From Oscillospiraceae bacterium (GTDB lineage: Bacteria > Bacillota > Clostridia > Oscillospirales > Oscillospiraceae): DNA of 64,000 nt. Position numbers and translations under genes: made by a program. The first letter of the stretch is position 1; each line of letters starts with the position of its first letter. Positions 1 to 51,898 of the stretch are shown here, piece after piece. The stretch covers positions 1-64,000 of the forward strand of contig CAJTCG010000003.1 in NCBI GenBank assembly GCA_910574635.1, given 5' to 3'. The notes under the pieces are model-generated. The model saw only the letters and a list, made by a program, of their open reading frames with translations, did no database searches and had not been told where the DNA came from.

Positions 1-99
<99 letters not shown>

Positions 100-21043: not shown

Positions 21044-22252
21044 ATGGAACGGAAAAACCATTACTTCAGCATGGGGGTGTCGGCGTTTGTGACCGCCGCC
21101 GCCGTTTTGCTGTTTTACGATACCCTCTTCGGCGGGAAGGCCGTGCTGGCCCTGCTGGAGACCGTGCGGCCTATCCTCTACGGGGCCTTCATCGCCTATC
21201 TGCTGGCCCCTATGGTGAATTTCTTCGAGCGCCACCTCTTCCCGCCCCATCCGGAGCGGGAGCGGAAGCGCTCCCAGGCCATGCTGATTCGCACCGTGGG
21301 CATTCTGCTTGCCTGGCTGGTGGTGTGGTTCTTCTTCTACCTGCTGGCCTCCGTGCTGCTGCCGGAGCTGTATAAGAGCGTCCTTCAGCTCATCGCCAAC
21401 GTGGATAAGTACTATCAGACCATCAGCGGCTGGGTGACCAGCCTGTCCAATCATCTCCTGGAGACCAACCCTGACCTGGCTCAGCAGATTGTGGAGAAGC
21501 TGGGGGACTATTTCCAGGACTTCGGCAAGTGGCTGTCGGGTTTGCTGCCCCAGCTTCAGACGGTGATGACCACCGTGTCCGGCGGCGTGTGGAGCGCGGT
21601 GAACTTTGTGATGGACCTGCTGGTGGGAATCATCGCCTCCGTCTATCTGCTGGCCACCAAGGAGCGCTGCGCCGCCTATGGCCGGAAGCTGGTTTACAGC
21701 CTCTTCCCCCGGGAGCAGGTGGGCCTGGTCCTCCGGGGGACCAAGCGGGCGGATACCATTTTCTCCGGCTTCGTCCGGGGGAAGCTGCTGGACTCCATCA
21801 TCATCGGCATTTTGTGCTTTGTCTGCTGCTCCATCTTAAAGTTCCCTTACACGCCCTTGGTGTCCGTCTTCGTGGGCGTGACCAACGTGATCCCCTTCTT
21901 CGGCCCCTTCCTGGGGGCCATCCCCAGCACCTTCCTGATTCTGCTGGTCTCCCCCCGCCAGGCGCTGTATTTCGTGATATTCGTCCTGGCCCTCCAGCAG
22001 CTGGACGGCAACGTCATCGGCCCCAAGATTCTGGGAAACACCACCGGCCTTTCCAGCTTGTGGGTCATCATCGCCATTTTGGTGGGGGGCGGCTTCTTCG
22101 GCGTGGCGGGCATGTTCTTCGGCGTGCCGGTGTGCGCCTGCCTCAACAGCCTCATCAACTTCTTCGTGGACGCCCGGCTGCGGAAAAAGGGCCTCTCCCC
22201 GGACTCTGGGGAGTATGCCGCCGGAGGGGCCTATGGGCCCCGGCCGGAATAA
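21044..22252 (+). CDS. AI-2E family (PerM/YdiK-type) membrane transporter
   Basis: 402 residues. About eight membrane segments; two near residues 10-55, one near 80-105, then a soluble helical stretch (residues about 110-170), then a C-terminal bundle that includes GVTNVIPFFGPFLGAIP and LQQLDGNVIGPKILG, the diagnostic motifs of the AI-2E family. Members export small signals or act as Na+/H+ antiporters; the substrate here is unknown. Start at ATG 21044 with AAGGAGG 10 nt upstream; the frame is open from 20903 but without a ribosome site. Divergent from the lipid kinase gene. Confidence 0.9.
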   Translation: MERKNHYFSMGVSAFVTAAAVLLFYDTLFGGKAVLALLETVRPILYGAFIAYLLAPMVNFFERHLFPPHPERERKRSQAMLIRTVGILLAWLVVWFFFYLLASVLLPELYKSVLQLIANVDKYYQTISGWVTSLSNHLLETNPDLAQQIVEKLGDYFQDFGKWLSGLLPQLQTVMTTVSGGVWSAVNFVMDLLVGIIASVYLLATKERCAAYGRKLVYSLFPREQVGLVLRGTKRADTIFSGFVRGKLLDSIIIGILCFVCCSILKFPYTPLVSVFVGVTNVIPFFGPFLGAIPSTFLILLVSPRQALYFVIFVLALQQLDGNVIGPKILGNTTGLSSLWVIIAILVGGGFFGVAGMFFGVPVCACLNSLINFFVDARLRKKGLSPDSGEYAAGGAYGPRPE

Positions 22253-22552
22253 GCGCCGGCCCCTTCCGCTCCGGTTCTTCCGGCCGCGCTTCAAGGGGGC
22301 GGGCGCGGCCCTGCGGATTTTCCGCCCCTGGGGGTGGGGGTAAAAAAATTAGGGAAAAGTTTGTGAAAACTATTGCAATCGTTTTTCCCGTCGTGTACAA
22401 TACGGCCTTGGGGCCTCCGGGAGACCGGAGGGTCCCGGGGCTTTATTCATGAAGAGCCCGCAAAAGTGAATAGAGCCGAATTATTTTGTCCGGGCGGGAC
22501 ATTCCCCGTCCAGCGCTGACCCGGGGACGGGCAGCGACGAAAGGAAACAGAC
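22253..22552. other. 300-bp promoter region of the ABC transporter operon
   Basis: Holds a GC-rich inverted repeat (GGCCGCGC at 22282-22289 with GCGCGGCC at 22303-22310, no T-run), the promoter at 22373-22401 and a leader of about 145 nt without a recognised riboswitch. Confidence 0.6.
22373..22401 (+). promoter_or_regulatory. Sigma-A promoter of the oligopeptide ABC operon
   Basis: TTGCAA at 22373-22378, a 17-bp spacer, TACAAT at 22396-22401. This gives an mRNA leader of about 145 nt before the substrate-binding-protein gene. Confidence 0.85.
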
Positions 22553-24112
22553 ATGAAGCGGAAACTTTTGGAGATTCTCCTCCTGCTGGGGCTTTTGTGC
22601 GCCGTACTCTGCGGATGCAAAGACGGCAGCGCGGCCCAGACGCCGGAGGACGAAAGCGGCTCCAACGAACCGGCGGCGCAGCCCGCGGCGGATCATCCCA
22701 ACGAGATCACCGTCGGCATCGCCCAGGACCTGGACGAGAGCCTTGACCCCCACAAAGCGGTGGCGGCAGGGACCAAGGAGGTCATGTTCAACGTATTCGA
22801 GGGGCTGATGAAGCCCACCCCGGAGGGGGACTTGATCCCCGCCGTGGCGGAAAAGTATGAAATTTCCGACGACCAATTGACCTATACCTTTACCATCCGG
22901 GACGGGATCAAGTTCCACAACGGCAACCCCGTGACGGCGGAGGACGTGGGCGAGTCCCTGGCCCGCTGCAAAAATGGCGGCGACGGCATTTTTGAGGTGG
23001 AGGCGTTTTCCAATATTCAACACATGGAGACGGCGGACAGCCGGAGCATTTCCATCACCCTGGGAGAGCCCGACAGCGAGTTTTTGTCCTATCTGACCGC
23101 GGCGGTTCTCCCCGCGGGCTATGACGGGCAGGATACCGCCCCTGTGGGCACCGGGCCGTTCAAATTCGTCTCCCGGGCCGCCCAGGACAACATTGTCTTG
23201 GAGCGCTTTGACGATTACTGGGGCGAGAAAGCGTATCTGGATAAAGTCACCTATAAGATTATCGAAAACGCGGACAGCATCCTCATGAGCCTCCAGAGCG
23301 GGGCGGTGGACCTGTTCGCCCACCTGACCAGCACCCAGGTGGCCCAGCTGGGGGACGAGTTCAACATTGAAGAGGGCACTATGAATCTGGTTCAGGCCAT
23401 GTATCTGAACAACGCCGTGGCCCCCTTCGACGACGTGCGGGTCCGCCAGGCCCTGTGCTACGCCATCGACCGCCAGCAGATTCTGGACCTGGCCTTCGAC
23501 GGCTACGGAAGCCTCATCGGCTCCAGCATGTACCCCGCCTTCGGGAAGTACTTCGACGACTCCCTGACCAATTACTATACCTACGACGTGGAGAAGGCCA
23601 AGGCCCTCCTGGCCGACGCGGGCTATCCCGACGGCTTTGCCATGACCATCACCGTGCCCTCCAACTACCAGCCCCACCTGGACACCGCCCAGGTTATCGT
23701 GGAGCAGCTGAAGCAGGTGGGCATCACCGCCGAAATTCTCCCCGTCACCTGGGAGAGCTGGCTCAACGACACCTACATGGGCCGGCAGTTCCAGGCCACC
23801 GTGGTGGGCGTGGACGCCTCCACCATGACGGCCCGGGCCCTGCTGGAGCGGTTTACCTCTACGGCGGGTAATAACTTTATCAATTATAACAACGCGGAGT
23901 ATGACGCCATCTTCCAGGCGGCCCTCGCCGCGGCGGACGACGCCGCCCAGACGGCGGCCTACAAACAGGCGGAGGCCAATTTGACGGAGAACGCCGCCAA
24001 CGTGTACATCCAGGATCTGGCCGATCTGGTGGCGATCCGCAAGGGCCTCACGGGCGTGCGGTTCTATCCCATCTACGTGCTGGATCTCAGCGGCATCCGG
24101 TATACGGACTAA
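22553..24112 (+). CDS. ABC transporter substrate-binding lipoprotein (family 5)
   Basis: 519 residues. Lipoprotein signal with lipobox LCGC (cysteine near residue 22), an acidic linker, then an SBP_bac_5 domain: DLDESLDPHKA, YEISDDQLTYTFTIRDGIKFHNG, VTAEDV, GTGPFKF. Binds a peptide, nickel chelate or similar ligand outside the membrane and hands it to the permease genes that follow. AAAGGAAAC precedes the ATG. An unusually stable intercistronic hairpin follows the stop codon. Confidence 0.93.
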   Translation: MKRKLLEILLLLGLLCAVLCGCKDGSAAQTPEDESGSNEPAAQPAADHPNEITVGIAQDLDESLDPHKAVAAGTKEVMFNVFEGLMKPTPEGDLIPAVAEKYEISDDQLTYTFTIRDGIKFHNGNPVTAEDVGESLARCKNGGDGIFEVEAFSNIQHMETADSRSISITLGEPDSEFLSYLTAAVLPAGYDGQDTAPVGTGPFKFVSRAAQDNIVLERFDDYWGEKAYLDKVTYKIIENADSILMSLQSGAVDLFAHLTSTQVAQLGDEFNIEEGTMNLVQAMYLNNAVAPFDDVRVRQALCYAIDRQQILDLAFDGYGSLIGSSMYPAFGKYFDDSLTNYYTYDVEKAKALLADAGYPDGFAMTITVPSNYQPHLDTAQVIVEQLKQVGITAEILPVTWESWLNDTYMGRQFQATVVGVDASTMTARALLERFTSTAGNNFINYNNAEYDAIFQAALAAADDAAQTAAYKQAEANLTENAANVYIQDLADLVAIRKGLTGVRFYPIYVLDLSGIRYTD

Positions 24113-24124
24113 TTTCAAAAACGA

Positions 24125-24166
24125 GAGAGCAGAGTGTGAAGAGCGAAATCTTCACGCTCTGCTCTC
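24125..24166 (+). promoter_or_regulatory. Intercistronic hairpin after the binding-protein gene
   Basis: GAGAGCAGAGTGTGAAGA pairs with TCTTCACGCTCTGCTCTC over 18 bp (one G-T pair) around a 6-nt loop. No T-run follows, so it should allow read-through and may protect the upstream mRNA end, giving more binding protein than permease. Confidence 0.8.
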
Positions 24167-24192
24167 CGCGCCTTTCAGAGGGGTACTTGCTG

Positions 24193-25137
24193 ATGAAATA
24201 CGCGTTGAAACGGGCTGCGGCGGGGCTGGCGACCATCCTGATCGTCTCCTTCCTGACCTTTGCGGCCTTCTCTCTCATCTCCGGCGACACCGCCACCGCC
24301 ATGCTGGGCACCTCGGCCACGCCGGAGCGCCTGGCGGCCCTCCGGGCAGAGCTGGGGCTGGACCGGCCCCTGCTGGTCCGGTACGGCGAGTGGCTGCTGG
24401 GCTTTTTCACCGGGAACCTGGGGGTTTCCACCAGCTATAAGCAGCCGGTGTGGGAGATCCTGGGGGCGAAGTTTCGCCTGACCTTGTGCCTGAGCCTGCT
24501 GAGCTTTGTCCTGATTACGGCGGTGTCCATCCCCCTGGGGCTCTGGTCCGCCGGGCGGAGGCGGTTCGAGGGGGCCCGGACGGCCCTGAACCAGCTGGGC
24601 ATGGCGGTGCCGTCCTTCTTCACGGGGATTCTGCTGTCCTGGGTCTTCGGCGTGGGGCTGAAGTGGTTCATGCCGGGGCAGTTTCCCGACGGGAAGGAGG
24701 ACTTCGCCGGGGCGGCGGTGTATCTGTTCTTTGCCGCCGCGGCCCTCTCCATTCCCCGCATCGCCATGACGGTGCGGATGCTCCGCAGCACGGTGCAGGA
24801 GGAATTGGGGAAGGACTATGTGCGCACCGCCATTTCCCGGGGAAACGACCGGGGCCAGGTCCTGCGGCGGCATGTGCTGAAAAACGCCCTGCCTCCGGTG
24901 GTCACCTTCCTGGCCCAGACCATGGCGGAGATTGTGGCGGGGAGCATTGTGGTGGAGCAGGTCTTTGTGATCCCCGGCCTGGGGCGGATGCTGGTGACCT
25001 CTATCGCGGGCCGGGACTATCCGGTGGTCCAGGCCATTGTGGTGATCCTGGCCTTCTGGGTGGTGCTGGCGGGGACGGCGGCGGATCTAATCAATCAGCG
25101 CATCGATCCCCGGCTCCGGATAGGAGGTGCGGCATGA
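24193..25137 (+). CDS. ABC transporter permease, DppB/OppB type
   Basis: 314 residues. N-terminal segment AAAGLATILIVSFLTFAAFSL, then the large loop with LGLDRPLLVRYGEW, and five further membrane segments. The EAA-like coupling loop is EELGKDYVRTAISRGNDRGQV. Start at ATG 24193 preceded by GAGGGG; the frame opens earlier inside the hairpin. Overlaps the next gene by 4 bp (ATGA). Confidence 0.93.
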   Translation: MKYALKRAAAGLATILIVSFLTFAAFSLISGDTATAMLGTSATPERLAALRAELGLDRPLLVRYGEWLLGFFTGNLGVSTSYKQPVWEILGAKFRLTLCLSLLSFVLITAVSIPLGLWSAGRRRFEGARTALNQLGMAVPSFFTGILLSWVFGVGLKWFMPGQFPDGKEDFAGAAVYLFFAAAALSIPRIAMTVRMLRSTVQEELGKDYVRTAISRGNDRGQVLRRHVLKNALPPVVTFLAQTMAEIVAGSIVVEQVFVIPGLGRMLVTSIAGRDYPVVQAIVVILAFWVVLAGTAADLINQRIDPRLRIGGAA

Positions 25138-25943
25138 AACGGCGAAACGGCTTTTTAACCGCCGGGCTGGTCCTGACCTGCGCCCTGGCGGCGCTGATCC
25201 TCCTGGGCTTTTTCTGGACGCCCTACGACCCCAACGCCATGGCGGCGGGGCCCAAGTTCGGCGGGCCCTCCCCGGCCCACTGGATGGGCACGGACAACTT
25301 CGGCCGGGACATTTTCAGCCGGGTCCTCAAGGGCGCCGGGGCCACGGCCTCCATCGCCCTGGCGACGCTGGCCATCGGGGCGGTCTGCGGGTGCCTGGCG
25401 GGGGCTCTGACGGGCTGCTTCGGCGGGCCGGTGGACGAGCTTTTGATGCGCCTCAACGACGCGCTGACGGCCTTTCCCAACATCCTCCTGGCCCTGGTGG
25501 TGATCTCCTTGCTGGAGCCGGGGAAGAAGATCAACGTCATTCTCGCCCTGGGGCTGGTGTTCATCCCCAGCTTTGCCCGGGTGACCCGGACGGCCTTCGC
25601 CTCCCTCCGGGACGTGAACTATATCAAAAGCGCCCGGCTGATGGGAGCGTCGAATCCCCGGATTCTGGCAATCCACATGCTGCCGAACACGGCGCCGGTG
25701 CTGCTGCCCGCCCTGACGATCGGCTTTAATAACGCGGTCCTGGCGGAGGCGTCCATGAGCTTTCTTGGCATCGGCGTGACGCCGCCGGACGCGTCTCTTG
25801 GCTATATGCTCTCCGAGGCCCAGGGGATGCTCTTCGCCGCCCCCTGGTACGCCGCCGGGACGGGCCTTGTGATTGTGCTGATGGTGTTCAGCGTGGGCCT
25901 GCTGGGCGAGGGCCTGCGGCGGCAGGACAAGGGGGTGCTGTGA
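25134..25943 (+). CDS. ABC transporter permease, DppC/OppC type
   Basis: 269 residues. One N-terminal membrane anchor (GLVLTCALAALILLGFFW), then the conserved HWMGTDNFGRDIFSRVLKGA of DppC proteins, four to five more segments and the coupling loop DVNYIKSARLMGASNPRIL. AGGAGG lies 7 nt upstream of the ATG inside the previous gene. Pairs with the preceding permease as the membrane channel. Confidence 0.93.
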   Translation: MKRRNGFLTAGLVLTCALAALILLGFFWTPYDPNAMAAGPKFGGPSPAHWMGTDNFGRDIFSRVLKGAGATASIALATLAIGAVCGCLAGALTGCFGGPVDELLMRLNDALTAFPNILLALVVISLLEPGKKINVILALGLVFIPSFARVTRTAFASLRDVNYIKSARLMGASNPRILAIHMLPNTAPVLLPALTIGFNNAVLAEASMSFLGIGVTPPDASLGYMLSEAQGMLFAAPWYAAGTGLVIVLMVFSVGLLGEGLRRQDKGVL

Positions 25944-26734
25944 TGCTGGAGATACGGGACCTTCATGTGAAGTTCCTAGGCCGGGACCGGGAGGCCGTGG
26001 CCGGGGTGTCCCTCTCCATCCGGGCGGGGGAAATCCTGGGCCTGGTGGGGGAGTCCGGGTCCGGGAAGACCGTTACCGCCATGAGCGTGGCGGGCCTGCT
26101 GCCCCGGAAGCAGTGTGATTATTCCGGGGAGATTCTCCTGGACGGGAAGGAGCTGCTCCACGCGGACCGGGCGGAGCTGCGGAACATCCAGGGCCGGGAG
26201 ATCGGCGTGGTGTTCCAGGAGCCCCAGAGCGCCCTGGACCCCCTGATGAAAATCGGCCCCCAGGTGGAGGAGGTCCTCCGGGTCCACACCAAACTGGGCC
26301 GGGAGGAGCGCCGCCGTCAGGCGGTGGAGGCCATGGCGGCGGTGGAGCTGCCGGAGGCGGAGGCGGTGTATGAAAAGTACCCCCACCAGCTTTCCGGGGG
26401 TATGCTTCAGCGGGCCATGATCGCGGCGGCGGTCATCGCAAAACCCAAGCTTTTGCTGCTGGACGAGCCGACGACGGCCCTGGACGTGACCATCCAGGCA
26501 CAGATTCTGGAGCTTTTAAAGAGGCTGAACCGGGAGTCCGGCGTGTCCATGCTCTTCATCTCCCACGACTTGAATGTGGTGCGGAAGCTCTGCGGCCGGG
26601 TGGCGGTGATGCAGCGGGGGCTGCTGGTGGAGGAGGGGGAGGCCCAGGAGGTCTTTCATCACCCCCATCATCCCTATACCCGGCGGCTCATCGCCGCCAT
26701 CCCCACAAGAACGCGGAAGGAGGGCGGGGCATGA
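25943..26734 (+). CDS. ABC transporter ATPase, DppD/OppD type
   Basis: 263 residues. Walker A GESGSGKT near residue 38, Q-loop [10 protein letters not shown], signature LSGGMLQR, Walker B LLLLDEP, D-loop [10 protein letters not shown], switch His in ISHDL. C-terminal [11 protein letters not shown] is the oligopeptide-type tail, truncated compared with OppD of 320-340 residues because the cysteine cluster is absent. GTG at 25940 is the alternative start. Overlaps both neighbours. Confidence 0.92.
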
Positions 26735-27465
26735 ACGAGCTGGTGTTATCCCTGGACCATGTATACAGCGGCTACAGCGACGGCGCCGGACCCTTCGGCA
26801 GGCGGACGCGCCAGGAGGTCCTCCACGACGTGACCTTCGACGTGCGCCACGGGGAGATTCTGGGCCTGGTGGGCGAGTCGGGGACGGGAAAGTCCACCCT
26901 GGCGAAAACCATCCTGGGGATGGTGAAGCCGGACCGGGGGACCGTGACCCACTACACGAAGCGGCCCCAGATGATTTTCCAGGACCCCTACAGCTCCCTC
27001 AACCCCTTTTACAGCGTGGAGTGGACCCTGGAAGAGCCCCTGCGGGTCTACGGGAAGTACAATAAAGCGGAGCGGAAGCGCCGGGTCCGGGAGATGCTGG
27101 AACGGGTGGAGCTGCGGCCGGAATGCCTGGGGGCGAAGCCCTCGGAGCTCTCCGGGGGCCAGCGCCAGCGGGTCAGCATCGCCGCGGCGCTGATCCGGCG
27201 GCCCAAATTCCTGATTGCCGACGAGCCGGTGTCCGCCCTGGACGTGACCATCCAGGCCCAGATTCTGGATTTGCTCCGCTCCCTCCGGCGGGAGCTGGAT
27301 TTGAGCTACCTGTTTATCTCCCACGATTTGAACGTGGTCTACCAGCTCTGCGACCGGGTGCTGGTGATGAAGAGCGGCCGCATCGTGGAGCAGGGGACCG
27401 TGGACGAGATTTTCGACCATCCCAAGGAAGACTATACCAAGCAGCTTCTGGCTGCCGCGGAGTGA
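26731..27465 (+). CDS. ABC transporter ATPase, DppF/OppF type
   Basis: 244 residues. Walker [11 protein letters not shown]-loop [11 protein letters not shown], signature LSGGQRQR, Walker B FLIADEP, D-loop [10 protein letters not shown], His switch ISHDL. Overlaps the previous ATPase gene by 4 bp. Shorter than usual OppF because the C-terminal extension is missing. Completes a five-gene uptake system with the binding protein and the two permeases. Confidence 0.92.
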
Positions 27466-27467
27466 CG

Positions 27468-28574
27468 ATGAAAGCATATTTCCACAAGTACCGAAACCTG
27501 CATATCTGGCTGCTGGCGGATTGCATCCTGCTGCTGGCCTTCTTCTCCCTCCGGGGGCAGAGATGGCTGATGAACGCCGTGGCGGAGGGCTTCACCGGCC
27601 CCCTCCGGCGGGGGCTGGGACGGCTTTGCTATTTGGTCCCCTTCTCCGTCATGGAGGTGGTGGAAGCCCTGGCGGTGCTCCTTGGCATCGGATACCTCGT
27701 CTGGAGCGTGATTGCCGTGGCCAGGGCCGGAGGACGGCGGCGGGAGCGGGCCTATGGCCTGGGCCTGGGGGCCCTCTGCGCCGTTTTGTCCGTGTGGGCC
27801 GGATTCTGCCTTCTATGGGGGGTCAACTACTGGACCGACGGCTTCCAGGACCAGTCCGGGATTTACGCCCAGCCCGTGGCCCTGGAGGATTTGCGGGCGG
27901 TGACGGAGTACTTCGCGGACCGGGTGTCCGAGACGGCGGGGGATGTAAAGCGGGATGAACACGGCCTCTTCGCCGTCCCCCGGGAGGAGATTCTGGAAAA
28001 CAGCGTCCACGCCTATGACGGCCTGACGGAGGACTTTCCCTTCCTGGCCTTCGACGACCCCGGCGTGAAGCCCATGGCCTTCTCCCGTCTCATGAGCGCC
28101 ATGGATTTCACCGGGTTCTACAGCTCCTTCACCGGGGAGTCCAACGTCAACGTGGACAGCCCCGCCTGCATGCTGCCCTCCACCATCGCCCACGAGCTGG
28201 CCCACCAGCGGGGCTTCGCCTCGGAGCAGGAGTGCAACTTCCTGGCGGTGCTGGCCTCCACCACCTGCTCCGACCCGGCGTATATCTATTCCGGCTGGCT
28301 CATCGGGTACGTCTATCTGGGAAACGCCCTGTACTCCCAGGACCCGGAGGGCTACCGGGCCATCCGGGAGGCCCTGCCGGAGGAGGCCCGGCTGGACCTG
28401 GCCTATAACAACGCCTACTGGGCCCAGTTTCAGGATACGCCGGTCCAGAAGGCCAGCAACAAGGTTTACGACGGGCTGCTGAAAAGCTACGGCGATGAGC
28501 GGGGCATCCAGTCCTACGGGATGGTGGTGGATTTGCTGGTGGCGTACTACCGCCCGCTGTGCGGAGGGGAATAA
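27468..28574 (+). CDS. DUF3810 membrane zinc-metalloprotease-like protein
   Basis: 368 residues. Three membrane segments in the first 120 residues, then an extracellular or cytoplasmic domain with HELAHQRGF at residues 242-250 (HExxH zinc motif) and a downstream EQECNF that could supply the third ligand. This matches the DUF3810 family. It starts 2 bp after the ABC operon, so it is probably its sixth gene; a role in releasing or processing the imported peptide is a guess. The terminator at 28580 closes the unit. Confidence 0.8.
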   Translation: MKAYFHKYRNLHIWLLADCILLLAFFSLRGQRWLMNAVAEGFTGPLRRGLGRLCYLVPFSVMEVVEALAVLLGIGYLVWSVIAVARAGGRRRERAYGLGLGALCAVLSVWAGFCLLWGVNYWTDGFQDQSGIYAQPVALEDLRAVTEYFADRVSETAGDVKRDEHGLFAVPREEILENSVHAYDGLTEDFPFLAFDDPGVKPMAFSRLMSAMDFTGFYSSFTGESNVNVDSPACMLPSTIAHELAHQRGFASEQECNFLAVLASTTCSDPAYIYSGWLIGYVYLGNALYSQDPEGYRAIREALPEEARLDLAYNNAYWAQFQDTPVQKASNKVYDGLLKSYGDERGIQSYGMVVDLLVAYYRPLCGGE

Positions 28575-47956: not shown

Positions 47957-48476
47957 AAAAATATTCCTTCTTTTGGTCGACATAATTTAATGAACCTTTC
48001 TATAAATTGTAACACAATAATATATTTTCTGCAAGTTGAAAATATTGATATCTTAATATATATTGCTACTATATATAGATTGCATTTTAAGCTAATATGC
48101 CTATTGATATACAACTATCTGCAAAATTGTACAATCGTTCAGGAAGCAAACAAAGAAATATTTATTTGAGTTCTTCGCAATATAAAGATGGAACTGCTTG
48201 AGAGAAATCCCGGGCAGTACCATTTTTTGTGTCTACAAATTCCAAAAATTCCAAATCATTTGACCATATGCTTTTTTGATTGCCCTGAAATGAAATTTAA
48301 GTATCAAATGGAACGCACCAAAAGGATGTTTCAAAAACAAAAAGCAAGCTTTTGGGACGTGTCCAGAGGGGGGAGGGTGAAACGCTTTGAAAGGTATAGC
48401 TTTCCGGGCACACCACTTTCGGGACGGTTTCGGTGTTTGGTTTCATTTGAAAATCTAGTTGAGAGGAGCAAGTACA
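47957..48476. other. AT-rich gene-free stretch at the island edge
   Basis: 520 bp with no supported gene. The part 48000-48120 is very AT-rich with ATATATA-type runs; 48188-48476 is open on the plus strand but resembles nothing known. Probably the left flank of the recombinase unit. Confidence 0.4.
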
Positions 48477-49093
48477 ATGAAAGTCGGATATGTGAGGATA
48501 TCGACCAAGGAGCAGAACACGGCAAGACAGGATTTGCTCATGCAGGAATTAGGGGTTGAACGGGTATTCACGGATAAGGTCAGCGGAAAGAATCAGGAAA
48601 GGCCAGAACTGCGCAAGATGATGGATTTTGTGCGGGAGGGTGACAGTCTGACCGTAGAGAGTATTTCACGCTTTGCGAGGAATACCCGTGACTTGCTTGA
48701 CCTAACCGCAACACTGGACGCAAAAGGTGTGCAGTTCATAAGCAGGAAAGAAAACATTGATACCAGCACAGCGGCAGGAAAATTCATGCTGGCGGTCTTT
48801 GCGCTTTGGCTGAACTCGAACGGGATAACATATTGGAGCGTCAAGCCGAGGGAATCGCCATAGCCAAGGCAGAGGGCCGCATGACTGGCAGACCCAAGAA
48901 AGCGGTTGTTACTTTCGAGGGCGTTTACCTTGACGTGAAGGAGGGGAGGCTGTCAGCCAGCGCAGGAGCGAAACAGTTGGGAATTTCTCGCTCGAAGTGG
49001 AATCGAAAAGTAAAAAATTTTGTGGGTTGCTGGTGCATGGATAAATGGAGGTATCATAAATCAAGCAAGTATACTCAGATTCTAGGAATATAA
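48477..49093 (+). pseudogene. Serine recombinase (resolvase/invertase), frameshifted
   Basis: The first part reads MKVGYVRISTKEQNTARQDL with the catalytic Ser in RIST, then VESISRFARNTRDLLDL. Near 48805 one G is missing (GCGCTTT for GCGGCTTT), and the reading continues in another frame as ELERDNILERQAEGIAIAKA, GRMTGRPKK and the C-terminal HTH AGAKQLGISRSKWNRKV. The intact protein would be about 195 residues. GAGAGGAG precedes the ATG at 48477. All active-site residues are in the first part, so the truncated product would lack DNA-binding. Confidence 0.88.
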
Positions 49094-49219: not shown

Positions 49220-49424
49220 ATGGACATTCAAAAAATTCAATCACTATGCCAAAAATGTTCCTTGCGAGGTATGTGCGCAATGCGGAGAAAAGTTTTACAC
49301 AGATGAAGCTGCCGAACGGTTGGAAAGGTTGGTATCTGCGGCTAAACGGCTAACCTGTTTCGGCGGTTCATTATACCAGCTAAAAAAATTTCCATCGGGG
49401 TACCCCGATGTTGTTTGGCATTAG
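49220..49424 (+). pseudogene. YgiT-type zinc-finger antitoxin remnant
   Basis: ATG at 49220 after GGAGGGG. One base too many in the A-run at 49230-49236 throws the frame; corrected, it reads MDIQKFNHYAKNVPCEVCAQ, CGEKFYTDEAAERLERLVSA and ends at TAG 49422. The CxxC in PCEVCAQCGE and the DEAAERLE helix are typical of YgiT/MqsA-like antitoxins of type II toxin-antitoxin systems. The upstream CxxC is absent and no toxin gene is adjacent. Confidence 0.6.
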
Positions 49425-49435
49425 CCAAACAACAA
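49410..49435 (+). terminator. Hairpin 3' of the zinc-finger remnant
   Basis: TTGTTTGGC, loop ATTA, GCCAAACAA, then CAAAAACC. The downstream T-run is missing on the plus strand, so termination is weak; it could serve the minus strand. Confidence 0.45.
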
Positions 49436-49924
49436 AAACCATTGGATTGAAGTTGAGGTGTTTTTATGAGGCGATGTGTGATATGGGGAGCGGCAAGGGA
49501 ATACGAACATATCATTAACCAGGTAAAATTTGAGGAATGGAAGGGCAATGTGCAATGTGTGGCGGTATTGTCAAAAAGTAAAGCGCGCTATATTAAAAAG
49601 TTTGACGGCTACCCGCTCATTTGCAAAGAAGATTTAAAAAGCATAGCATTTGATTATCTGATTATTCCGCAGGGAAAGGATTATGAGGAAATTAAACTGG
49701 AAGCGTTAGCGCTGGGAATACCGAACAATAAAATTATTTCCAGCAGGGTATTCCAAATTCCATGCTTTGATTTTAAAAGATACGCATCCCTACGTGAAAA
49801 CCCGGTCACTATATTGTCAAATGATTGCTGGGGAGGGCTGGTATACCGGGAATTGGATTTACCGTTGTCCCTTTTCAGAAAAGTGCTGCTGGGATATAAC
49901 TTCGGCGGTTTCCACAAAAGCACA

Positions 49925-49953
49925 TTGAAACAGCAGGAGTCCTGTGCTATAAT
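49925..49953 (+). promoter_or_regulatory. Consensus promoter inside the cassette
   Basis: TTGAAA at 49925-49930, 17-bp spacer, TATAAT at 49948-49953. It lies 36 bp upstream of the GNAT ATG. Confidence 0.88.
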
Positions 49954-49988
49954 CGGCTCGACAAATCGGAATTTAAGGAGTTGTTGAA

Positions 49989-50477
49989 ATGGAGATTAGA
50001 TACATCACCAAAGATGATAATCCTCTTGAAATAAGCAAAATATATGAAAGTAGTTGGAAATACGCATATAAAAACATTATTCCTCAAAACTATCTTAATA
50101 GTATTCCAACGGGGCAATGGGCTAATAGTATCAATAAAATTGGTATGAATAACCTTGTTCTGATAGAACATGGGAGTCTTATAGGTACTGCAAGTTTCTG
50201 TAAATCAAGATGGGAAAAATACAGCGAATATGGAGAAATCGTTTCCATATATTTTTTGCCTGATTACATTGGAAAAGGATACGGTAGGTTATTGCTTAAC
50301 AAGTGTATTAAAGAATTAAAACAATGCGGATTTAGTAAAGTGCTTTTATGGGTTTTGGAGGATAATCATAGAGCAAGAAAATTTTATGAAAAAAACGGAT
50401 TTATTTATTCAGAAGTATTTCGGGATGATAATATCGGTGGGAAAGATATAAGAGAGGTATTGTATTTCCTTGTATAG
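49989..50477 (+). CDS. GNAT family N-acetyltransferase (cassette cargo)
   Basis: 162 residues. GNAT fold: N-terminal substrate region, beta-4 (EYGEIVSIYFLPDY) and the acetyl-CoA pyrophosphate loop in YIGKGYGRLLLNKCI near residues 93-107, then NHRARKFYEKNGFIYSEVF near 128-146 as motif B. It would acetylate a small molecule or a protein N-terminus; the substrate is unknown. AAGGAG is 7 nt ahead of the ATG. AT-rich. It is the sole gene of the mobile cassette, transcribed from its own promoter. A detoxification or resistance role is plausible but not shown. Confidence 0.92.
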   Translation: MEIRYITKDDNPLEISKIYESSWKYAYKNIIPQNYLNSIPTGQWANSINKIGMNNLVLIEHGSLIGTASFCKSRWEKYSEYGEIVSIYFLPDYIGKGYGRLLLNKCIKELKQCGFSKVLLWVLEDNHRARKFYEKNGFIYSEVFRDDNIGGKDIREVLYFLV

Positions 50478-50494
50478 ATAAATTCCAGTTTATT

Positions 50495-50528
50495 GGGTGG
50501 CCATCCAGTAATGGATGGCTGCCCGTTT
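50495..50528 (+). terminator. Terminator of the cassette gene
   Basis: GGGTGGCCATCCA, loop GTAA, TGGATGGCTGCCC: 13 bp with two G-T pairs, followed by GTTTTG. The ATG at 50515 is inside this hairpin, so the frame that begins there is not a gene start. Confidence 0.8.
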
Positions 50529-51139
50529 TGGATATTTTGACGAGTGGTTTGACGAAGCGGTCTTCAGCAACACTAATCTGAAAAGGGAGTTACCGTTTAC
50601 GTCACCTCTTATAAATATAGCTTGGCCAAGGGAATCCTTTTGTGAATTCATAAAGGACCCGCTTTTTTACCTGAGAAAACCGCTGCACATGGTGCGGGAC
50701 GGCGTTCCCCGGGAAAGCGCGTTTCCGATTGGAAGGCTTGGGGATGAGAACAGGAGCGTGGAATTACACTTTGTCCATTCAAGAAGCTCTCAGGAAGCGG
50801 AGGAGGATTGGAATCGAAGAGTAAAGAGAATCAATGAAGACAGGCTGTTTGTCAAATTTGCTTTTGAAGCCTCGGATCCAAGGCGGGAGGAGTACCTATC
50901 CGTATTCAGAAAGCTGACTTGCCCCAAAATATGCGCATACCCAGGAGAGACTGGCGAAAAGGATAAGGATGTTTTTTATTCAAGGATGTTTGAACGAGAT
51001 TGGTATGATGATAAATACTTGAAGATGAGGGAATTCAAAAATTGGTTTTTACAACCGGAAAACTTCACGAAAGCGGTGGATTTGCTCAAATTGCTAAATG
51101 GGGAAAAAGATTACCGCCGGGAAGAATAATCAATAAAAA

Positions 51140-51170
51140 GAAAGACCGCCGACGGCGGTCTTTCTTTTTT
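51140..51170 (+). terminator. Terminator after the DUF1919 gene
   Basis: AAAGACCGCC, loop GAC, GGCGGTCTTT, followed by CTTTTTT. Confidence 0.88.
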
Positions 51171-51244
51171 GGAGGTGACACCCGGATTTGAACCGGGGAA
51201 TCAGGGTTTTGCAGACCCTTGCCTTACCACTTGGCTATGTCACC
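51170..51244 (-). tRNA. tRNA-Cys (GCA)
   Basis: Minus strand acceptor GGTGACA pairs with TGTCACC, anticodon loop TCTGCAA, discriminator T and encoded CCA. Confidence 0.94.
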
Positions 51245-51425
51245 ATCTACACTGTATTATATGCGAACTCTCCGAAAAAGTCCACCCCTTTTTGAAAAAA
51301 ACTCAAAAATTTTTCCCGCCCGCCGGAACCCCGCCGCGAACGAAGCAATGCGGCGCAAAACCGGAGCCCCGGAACCCGGCGAAGCATCCGCAAGAGATGC
51401 GCAGCGGTTCCGGTGGGGAAGCGAA

Positions 51426-51487
51426 GGAATTCCCATCACCGCTCCGCTTCCGCCTTGCGGCGAAAACTCCGCTATGATGGGAATTCC
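51426..51487. repeat. Perfect 13-bp inverted repeat between tRNA genes
   Basis: GGAATTCCCATCA at 51426-51438 and TGATGGGAATTCC at 51475-51487 with a 36-nt GC-rich centre. It could be a small repeat or processing hairpin between tRNA-Cys and tRNA-Gly. Confidence 0.65.
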
Positions 51488-51492
51488 TGAGC

Positions 51493-51568
51493 TGGAGCGG
51501 GCAACGAGGCTCGAACTCGCTACCTCCACCTTGGCAAGGTGGCGCTCTACCAGATGAGCTATGCCCGC
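51493..51568 (-). tRNA. tRNA-Gly (GCC)
   Basis: Acceptor GCGGGCA pairs with TGCCCGC, anticodon loop TTGCCAA, CCA encoded. Confidence 0.95.
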
Positions 51569-51629
51569 ATATGGGGCACGCCGCATTCGTAAGGCGGCAA
51601 GCCGCCAACGACTGCGCAGTGCCCGCGTG

Positions 51630-51705
51630 TGGTGCCCAGAGCCGGAATCGAACCAGCGACACGTGGATTTTCAGTCCACTGCTCTACCAACTGAGCTATC
51701 TGGGC
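51630..51705 (-). tRNA. tRNA-Phe (GAA)
   Basis: Acceptor GCCCAGA pairs with TCTGGGC, anticodon loop CTGAAAA, CCA encoded. Confidence 0.95.
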
Positions 51706-51708
51706 AAG

Positions 51709-51785
51709 TGGCGACCCGGAACGGGCTCGAACCGTCGACCTCTAGCGTGACAGGCTAGCGTTCTAACCAACTGAACTACCGGGCC
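51709..51785 (-). tRNA. tRNA-Asp (GTC), second copy
   Basis: Same sequence as the plus-strand gene at 498-574 by inspection. Acceptor GGCCCGG, anticodon loop CTGTCAC, CCA encoded. Confidence 0.96.
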
Positions 51786-51821
51786 GTAACCTTGCGTGGA
51801 AGGGGCTTAAGAGTGGGGATC

Positions 51822-51898
51822 TGGTGGGAACAACTGGACTCGAACCAGTGACCCCCTGCTTGTAAGGCAGATGCTCTAACCAGCTGAGCTATGCTCCC
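51822..51898 (-). tRNA. tRNA-Val (TAC)
   Basis: Acceptor GGGAGCA pairs with TGTTCCC (one G-T pair), anticodon loop CTTACAA, CCA encoded. First tRNA of this minus-strand array. Confidence 0.94.

Follow-up and report, generated by a model that had tools for sequence, protein, structure and literature searches.

The 723-bp insert that splits a DUF1919 gene in the window (the whole 64,000-nucleotide stretch of Oscillospiraceae DNA analysed here) is very probably a mobile cassette, likely moved by a DDE transposase acting in trans, that belongs to a family of elements exchanging genes between predicted promoter and terminator arms. Its anatomy is that of a mobile insertion cassette (MIC): inverted repeats surround a passenger gene, there is no transposase gene, and the target site is duplicated. 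Two parts of the picture appear to be new, namely the fixed, predicted expression arms with their interchangeable genes, and the register with promoter-like sequences. A preliminary description of the window had already read the insert as a mobile cassette, and the present analysis supports that reading; cargo exchange and the distance to promoters are additions beyond it.

At the insertion site, the letters agree with what had been described: the insert interrupts a DUF1919 gene, is directly flanked by identical 8-bp repeats and ends in inverted repeats of which the outer 12 bases match perfectly (exact coordinates in Table 1). An extra base, G, at 49867 and again at 50589, lies between the inverted ends and the duplication and is included in the 723 bp. 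The DUF1919 profile of Pfam is divided between the two halves of the host gene, the left ORF matching profile positions 4-42 and the right ORF 40-182. An unbroken homologue of 310 aa, P0121, matches the left half at 97% over 1-135 and the right half at 90% over 119-310, and reads RELDLPFTSPLINIYW through the insertion site without interruption; the 311 codons that had been counted after excision of the insert agree with its 310 residues plus a stop. The host gene without the insert, for which a search had been proposed, is therefore represented by intact homologous proteins of this length; at the DNA level, no empty site was found among the matches listed for 61 genomes of the window's genus.

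The complete expression unit proposed for the insert (TTGAAA-17-TATAAT, a GNAT gene and a hairpin) lies at the positions given for it, the promoter and the terminator being predicted features, the cargo matches the GNAT family in Pfam, and the insert holds no transposase gene. The window GNAT has 723 homologous proteins and distant relatives in the PDB, e.g. 1wk4. A scan for regulatory signals yielded 3 promoter-like sites compared to 3.2 in shuffled sequences and 1 terminator-like site compared to 0.7; because these counts are about those of the shuffles, the cassette promoter and terminator gain weight only through their conservation in relatives. Just upstream of the split gene, at 48459-49093, lie a serine resolvase N-terminal domain (PF00239) and, after it and overlapping it in another frame, an ORF without a Pfam match; the pair looks like a broken recombinase. 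The window also contains two tRNA clusters of five genes each (134-655 and 51170-51898), the second of which starts about 40 bases past the split gene; in an Rfam scan of 49400-51300, tRNA alone exceeded the gathering score.

Table 1. Features of the cassette and of the gene that it interrupts (positions in the window)
Feature	Position	Strand	Basis
Host gene interrupted by the cassette (C2185-like_N plus DUF1919)	49466..51129	+	Pfam, intact homologues
Target site duplication, left copy TTACCGTT	49859..49866	.	Identical copy at 50590-50597
Mobile cassette, 723 bp	49867..50589	+	Ends, duplication; single copy in its own genome
Promoter arm (left), ~108 bp	49867..49974	+	Conserved across cassettes with unrelated cargo
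Left terminal inverted repeat, 24 bp	49868..49891	+	88% complementary to the right one; also present in other genomes
Predicted cassette promoter TTGAAA-17-TATAAT, TG before the -10 box	49925..49953	+	Sequence scan
Left inner boundary AAATCGGAATTT, end of conservation	49963..49974	+	Arm alignment
Cargo: GNAT acetyltransferase, 162 aa	49989..50477	+	Pfam PF00583, 1.5e-19
Right inner boundary AAATTCCAGTTTAT, conservation restarts	50480..50493	+	Arm alignment
Terminator arm (right), ~110 bp	50480..50589	+	Arm alignment
Predicted terminator hairpin	50494..50525	+	14 pairs, then a short T tract (TTTTGG); stem region conserved in relatives
Right terminal inverted repeat, 24 bp	50565..50588	-	88% complementary to the left one
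Target site duplication, right copy TTACCGTT	50590..50597	.	Identical to the left copy

The preliminary description had held that mobility would be unsupported if the inverted ends occurred nowhere else; they recur in other genomes, and many elements with the same ends and other cargo were found across the Clostridia. The 24-bp end pattern is present in 8 of 300 genomes of the family, the window's own included (reversed-pattern control, 0 among the matches listed), and a looser pattern in 25 of 86 genomes of the genus (control, 1 among the matches listed), while a degenerate pattern identified 61 stretches in 84,980 species genomes; the genome counts of these separate searches overlap because some genomes were reached more than once under different handles. 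The records of the 61 stretches are titled mostly as Oscillibacter, Oscillospiraceae and other Clostridia or Firmicutes, with one 'uncultured bacterium'; many cassette records are metagenome bins and some are titled as isolates. Three single ends outside the Firmicutes (in Alteromonas, an acidobacterium and Rhizonema) are without a partner and were taken as chance matches.

Among the end types distinguished are group B (CTCCCTTTTCGGAAAAGTGTTCC; members L115, L120, L184, L188 and L191) and group C (CTCCCTTTTACCTTTNGTGTTG). The group B pattern occurs class-wide in 7 of 391 genomes, the window's own included. The sole plasmid record matched is OY725877.1, a circular plasmid of Subdoligranulum variabile. 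Its cassette (L013, from 21314-27985 of that record) lies next to a promoter-like sequence in the 7-nt register described below, which scores 10/12, and carries a cargo of 147 aa without a Pfam match; a predicted aadE gene lies ~0.9 kb away. None of the plasmid records carries one group C together with one group B cassette, and annotated phage records contain no end match. In IMG/VR, the three end patterns were found in 1, 0 and 6 stretches, the six having group B ends; several of these (L311-L316) lie beside ORFs that appear repressor-like by eye, and mostly there is no recognisable second end.

An arm-profile search of the collected loci, which did not require a duplication, identified 47 elements of 150-1182 bp with both window-type arms. 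If scoring tolerates a displacement of up to 2 bases at either end, 29 of the 47 have exact 8-bp duplications and 35 have duplications with at most one mismatch. A search for the end motif combined with an exact duplication yielded 51 pairs when the true register was used and none in any of five decoy registers; as one pair is a composite of two tandem elements, these correspond to 50 elements, at 49 distinct sites, which include related end types and overlap the 47 arm-defined elements. One further element of ~1.42 kb was read over two stretches that seem to adjoin.

Several loci depart from the simple plan of one cassette with one gene. In L285 (3711-5003), two tandem cassettes with different genes and the same duplication sequence are bracketed by three copies of TTTTCTTT, and L056 (1330-2556) likewise contains two cassettes with different genes side by side; both resemble the start of an array. 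L063 contains two genes and a partial second promoter arm. In L018 (4928-5015), a cassette end of a different type lies further out than the inner promoter arm, and it is this outer type that is bracketed by the duplication; ends similar by eye to this outer type were seen in L032, L061 and L082. At the other extreme, L141 (900-1112, 213 bp) is gene-less, its two arms meet, and it has an exact duplication; other very short units are L105 (1376-1525, 150 bp) and L274 (3731-4032, ~302 bp, group B, exact duplication). Such units recall MITEs, which are likewise short and non-autonomous with inverted ends and a duplication; however, MITEs lack coding capacity, whereas 44 of the 47 arm-defined elements contain an ORF of at least 45 aa.

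Alignment of 36 of the 47 arm-defined elements (11 were left out as degenerate, gene-less or odd) delimits the arms. Conservation spans the element end to position ~108 (AAATCGGAATTT), falls to near zero in the ~40 bases past the inner boundaries and resumes ~110 bp before the other end (AACTTCCAGTTTAT). The arms are predicted to start and end transcription, although an exact TTGANN-15..19-TATAAT is found in just 24 of 45 left arms. Cargo ORFs begin between positions 121 and 127 in 20 of 44 elements, each behind a ribosome-binding site of its own, and in nine elements a stop codon overlaps the right inner boundary.

Between the boundaries, there is nearly always one gene per cassette, and the ORFs of the 44 elements fall into 30 clusters, a few of which are probably decayed copies. 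The Pfam families represented include GNAT, NUDIX, glyoxalase, cupin, cytidine deaminase, SMI1/KNR4, Imm19, TraX, AAA-type kinases, RibD_C, metallo-beta-lactamase fold, HTH_3, SLH, DUF3267, DUF3781, DUF3784, DUF4177, DUF4274, DUF6144, DUF6440, DUF6487, DUF6881 and DUF7677. A large minority of the 51 cargo proteins scanned have no Pfam family at E 0.01 or weak ones only, and none of the 51 belongs to a transposase family; the elements beyond these 51 repeat the same cargos or hold only short ORFs. The suggestion that such a unit spreads small detoxification genes is too narrow, given that GNAT is one of up to 30 cargo clusters.

Pairwise comparisons separate the arms from the cargo. The window cassette and L026, from another genome, are identical over the first 100 bases of the left arm and 98% identical in the right arms, and their genes are unrelated. 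Conversely, L132 and L272 have the same DUF6144 cargo (95%) and share 585 of 616 bases (positions 106-721 of the 809 in L132), a block that opens at the left inner boundary and runs ~20 bases beyond the first base of the right one, whereas identity between the left arms is 62%; in L272, no outer right end could be located. The GNAT cargo of the window recurs in L223 (which has no duplication), L224 and L225 at 88, 87 and 83%, respectively, with arms that are 47-71% identical. At the level of sequence, these comparisons demonstrate that arms and cargo have separate histories, with genes exchanged in both directions at fixed inner boundaries. The swap might proceed by recombination at these short boundaries. 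Pairing between the two is unsupported because they do not co-vary within elements (7.70 of 12 compared to 7.75 by shuffle, 33 elements).

The second unusual property of the family is the position of the insertion sites. Read outward from the promoter arm, the 8-bp duplication is followed by 7 bases and then by a sigma70-like TTGACA-17-TATAAT. In the set of 49 distinct sites, which comes from detection requiring an exact duplication, 26 score at least 9/12 at offset 7, and the other 23 score below 9; every other offset between 0 and 39 has 0-2 such sites, and flanks resampled 500 times under a Markov model contained on average 0.16 such sites and never more than 3. In the unselected set, 16 of 40 distinct promoter-arm ends score at least 9/12 at offset 7, compared to 0-1 at each of the other offsets from 0 to 21; the same threshold is reached by 2 of 45 terminator-arm ends, both from the same locus family, and by 9 of 33 unclassified ends. 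A logo of the 40 promoter-arm ends displays both promoter boxes, and TG before the second one, at the 7-nt register; that of the 45 terminator-arm ends contains no promoter signal.

The site in the window is an exception: it lies inside a gene and scores 4 and 1 at the 7-nt register. The group B elements L115 and L188, which have exact duplications, show no promoter register either. In L071/L081, L179 and L224, the promoter is on the side of the terminator arm, so that the orientation is a preference rather than a rule. ORFs that read outward were found on 23 of 25 promoter sides; because 19 of 25 opposite sides have them too, they are no independent proof of promoters. In about half of the sites examined, cassettes keep a fixed distance to promoter-like sequences, the promoters and their activity being predicted. 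The exact spacing of 7 nt to the -35 box and the prevailing orientation of window-type elements, with the promoter arm towards the host promoter, suggest that the insertion complex may read the promoter or a promoter-bound protein. An insertion upstream of the -35 box would leave the host gene expressible, with the cassette gene reading the opposite way. The Tn7 family and the Ty1 and Ty3 elements of yeast also insert at a fixed register to a recognised feature, with an orientation preference; in the present case, however, the duplication is 8 bp instead of 5, and the feature is a sigma70-like promoter at many sites. We know of no targeting protein for the present cassettes, unlike the Tn7 family or Ty1/Ty3.

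The inverted ends, the constant 8-bp duplication and the absence of a transposase gene point to a DDE-type transposase that would be supplied in trans. The preliminary description had proposed to look for a full insertion sequence that shares these ends and encodes a transposase; none was found in what was searched. No single element is longer than 1.42 kb in searches that permitted 5-6 kb, and no transposase-like ORF was recognised by eye among the ORFs listed behind the unpaired ends inspected, nor a transposase among those listed behind the group B ends. The end in L074 is followed by an IS630-like ORF and that in L025 by a reverse-transcriptase-like ORF, and both ORFs appear to be neighbours or nested elements.

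Two transposase families were considered as candidates and rejected. The ISL3 domain (PF01610) is present in 1 of 13 cassette genomes or records, where the match is short and contains a stop, and in 5 of the 86 genus genomes; around the six loci, the thresholds used revealed no inverted ends accompanied by an 8-bp duplication. The IS256 domain (PF00872) is present in 4 of the 13; the best end score around 30 loci is 16.3, compared to over 22 for most of the cassette ends behind the matrix. Some IS256 copies have a cassette-like motif immediately upstream of the transposase start codon, at the place expected of a ribosome-binding site, and the IS256 copies of the window's genome remain alike beyond this motif. 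That genome has fifteen IS256-family matches, several of them fragmentary.

Some alternative explanations need to be weighed against a gene-exchanging cassette family. The first, which we consider unlikely, is that the elements are ordinary MICs, i.e. internally deleted copies of one IS with chance passengers and no special exchange or targeting. The anatomy fits the MIC description in the available text of the source, with inverted repeats, no transposase and a target duplication, and the same text attributes the mobilisation of MIC231 to the IS231A transposase acting in trans (PMC3913671). As far as the available text of the sources goes, MIC231 of Bacillus cereus and mic-qnrD of Proteeae (PMC3913671, PMC6542083) share with the present elements the inverted repeats, a passenger, the absence of a transposase, the duplication and, in the present case presumably, a transposase in trans. 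The present elements differ from these two in their conserved promoter and terminator arms, between which many genes are interchangeable, in having other ends, in a duplication that is constantly 8 bp and in a registered insertion upstream of promoter-like sites. Deleted copies of one IS also do not account for arms that are conserved to a fixed boundary and not further, for histories of arms and cargo that separate in both directions, or for sites registered on -35 boxes, and no parent IS with such ends was seen.

It appears less probable still that the promoter register is a product of selection, such that insertions occur at random and those just upstream of a -35 box survive by keeping the host gene expressed. 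On general grounds, a cell should tolerate an insertion that lies upstream of a promoter, but such tolerance should permit many distances, in contrast to the 26 sites at offset 7 and 0-2 elsewhere, and the register is found mostly at one end of the element.

Movement as integron-like gene cassettes by a tyrosine recombinase is a very improbable explanation. Integron gene cassettes are small single genes behind a shared promoter, and their cargo is of similar kinds; the single ORFs fitted tightly between the boundaries and the cargo spectrum of the present family recall them, and tandem cassettes exist (L285 and L056). However, integron cassettes insert at attC/attI without a target duplication, whereas each unit here has its own predicted promoter and terminator, terminal inverted repeats and 8-bp duplications, outer ends of a kind not made by integron insertion. 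The integron integrase (TIGR02249) is above the cut-off in 0 of 15 genomes or records; weaker matches occur in 14 of the 15 and also in 14 of 14 control genomes. For the outer ends, as distinct from the inner cargo exchange, integron-type movement is contradicted. Finally, the possibility that the inverted repeats are due to chance, or that a frameshifted gene contains an assembly artefact, a concern raised by the several records that are metagenome bins, is refuted by the intact homologues of the split gene, by many independent copies with exact duplications compared to 0 in decoy registers, and by copies in isolate-titled records and in the circular plasmid record.

We accordingly favour a mobile cassette family with predicted expression arms and exchangeable genes. 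A more far-reaching version, which we put forward tentatively and with somewhat less than even confidence, is that these elements are a transposon-borne counterpart of integrons: genes would be swapped at the inner boundaries, and RNA polymerase or a sigma factor would guide the transposition complex to a point exactly 7 bp before a host -35 box, where the new gene would be tolerated next to a working one. In the literature covered, which excluded most subscription journals, a promoter-seeking or cargo-swapping cassette was not found. The title of a 2004 paper describes the IS231-MIC231 elements as 'modular', so there may be some overlap with the cargo exchange proposed here.

If this reading holds, the cassettes represent a route of single-gene exchange in gut Clostridia that has been overlooked because the units are short, lack a transposase and resemble host sequence. 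In that case, gut Clostridia would draw on a pool of genes comparable to that of integrons, and the 7-nt register would add one of the few examples of bacterial mobile elements that read promoters. The arms are a simple signature by which small genes of unknown function can be annotated as mobile cargo.
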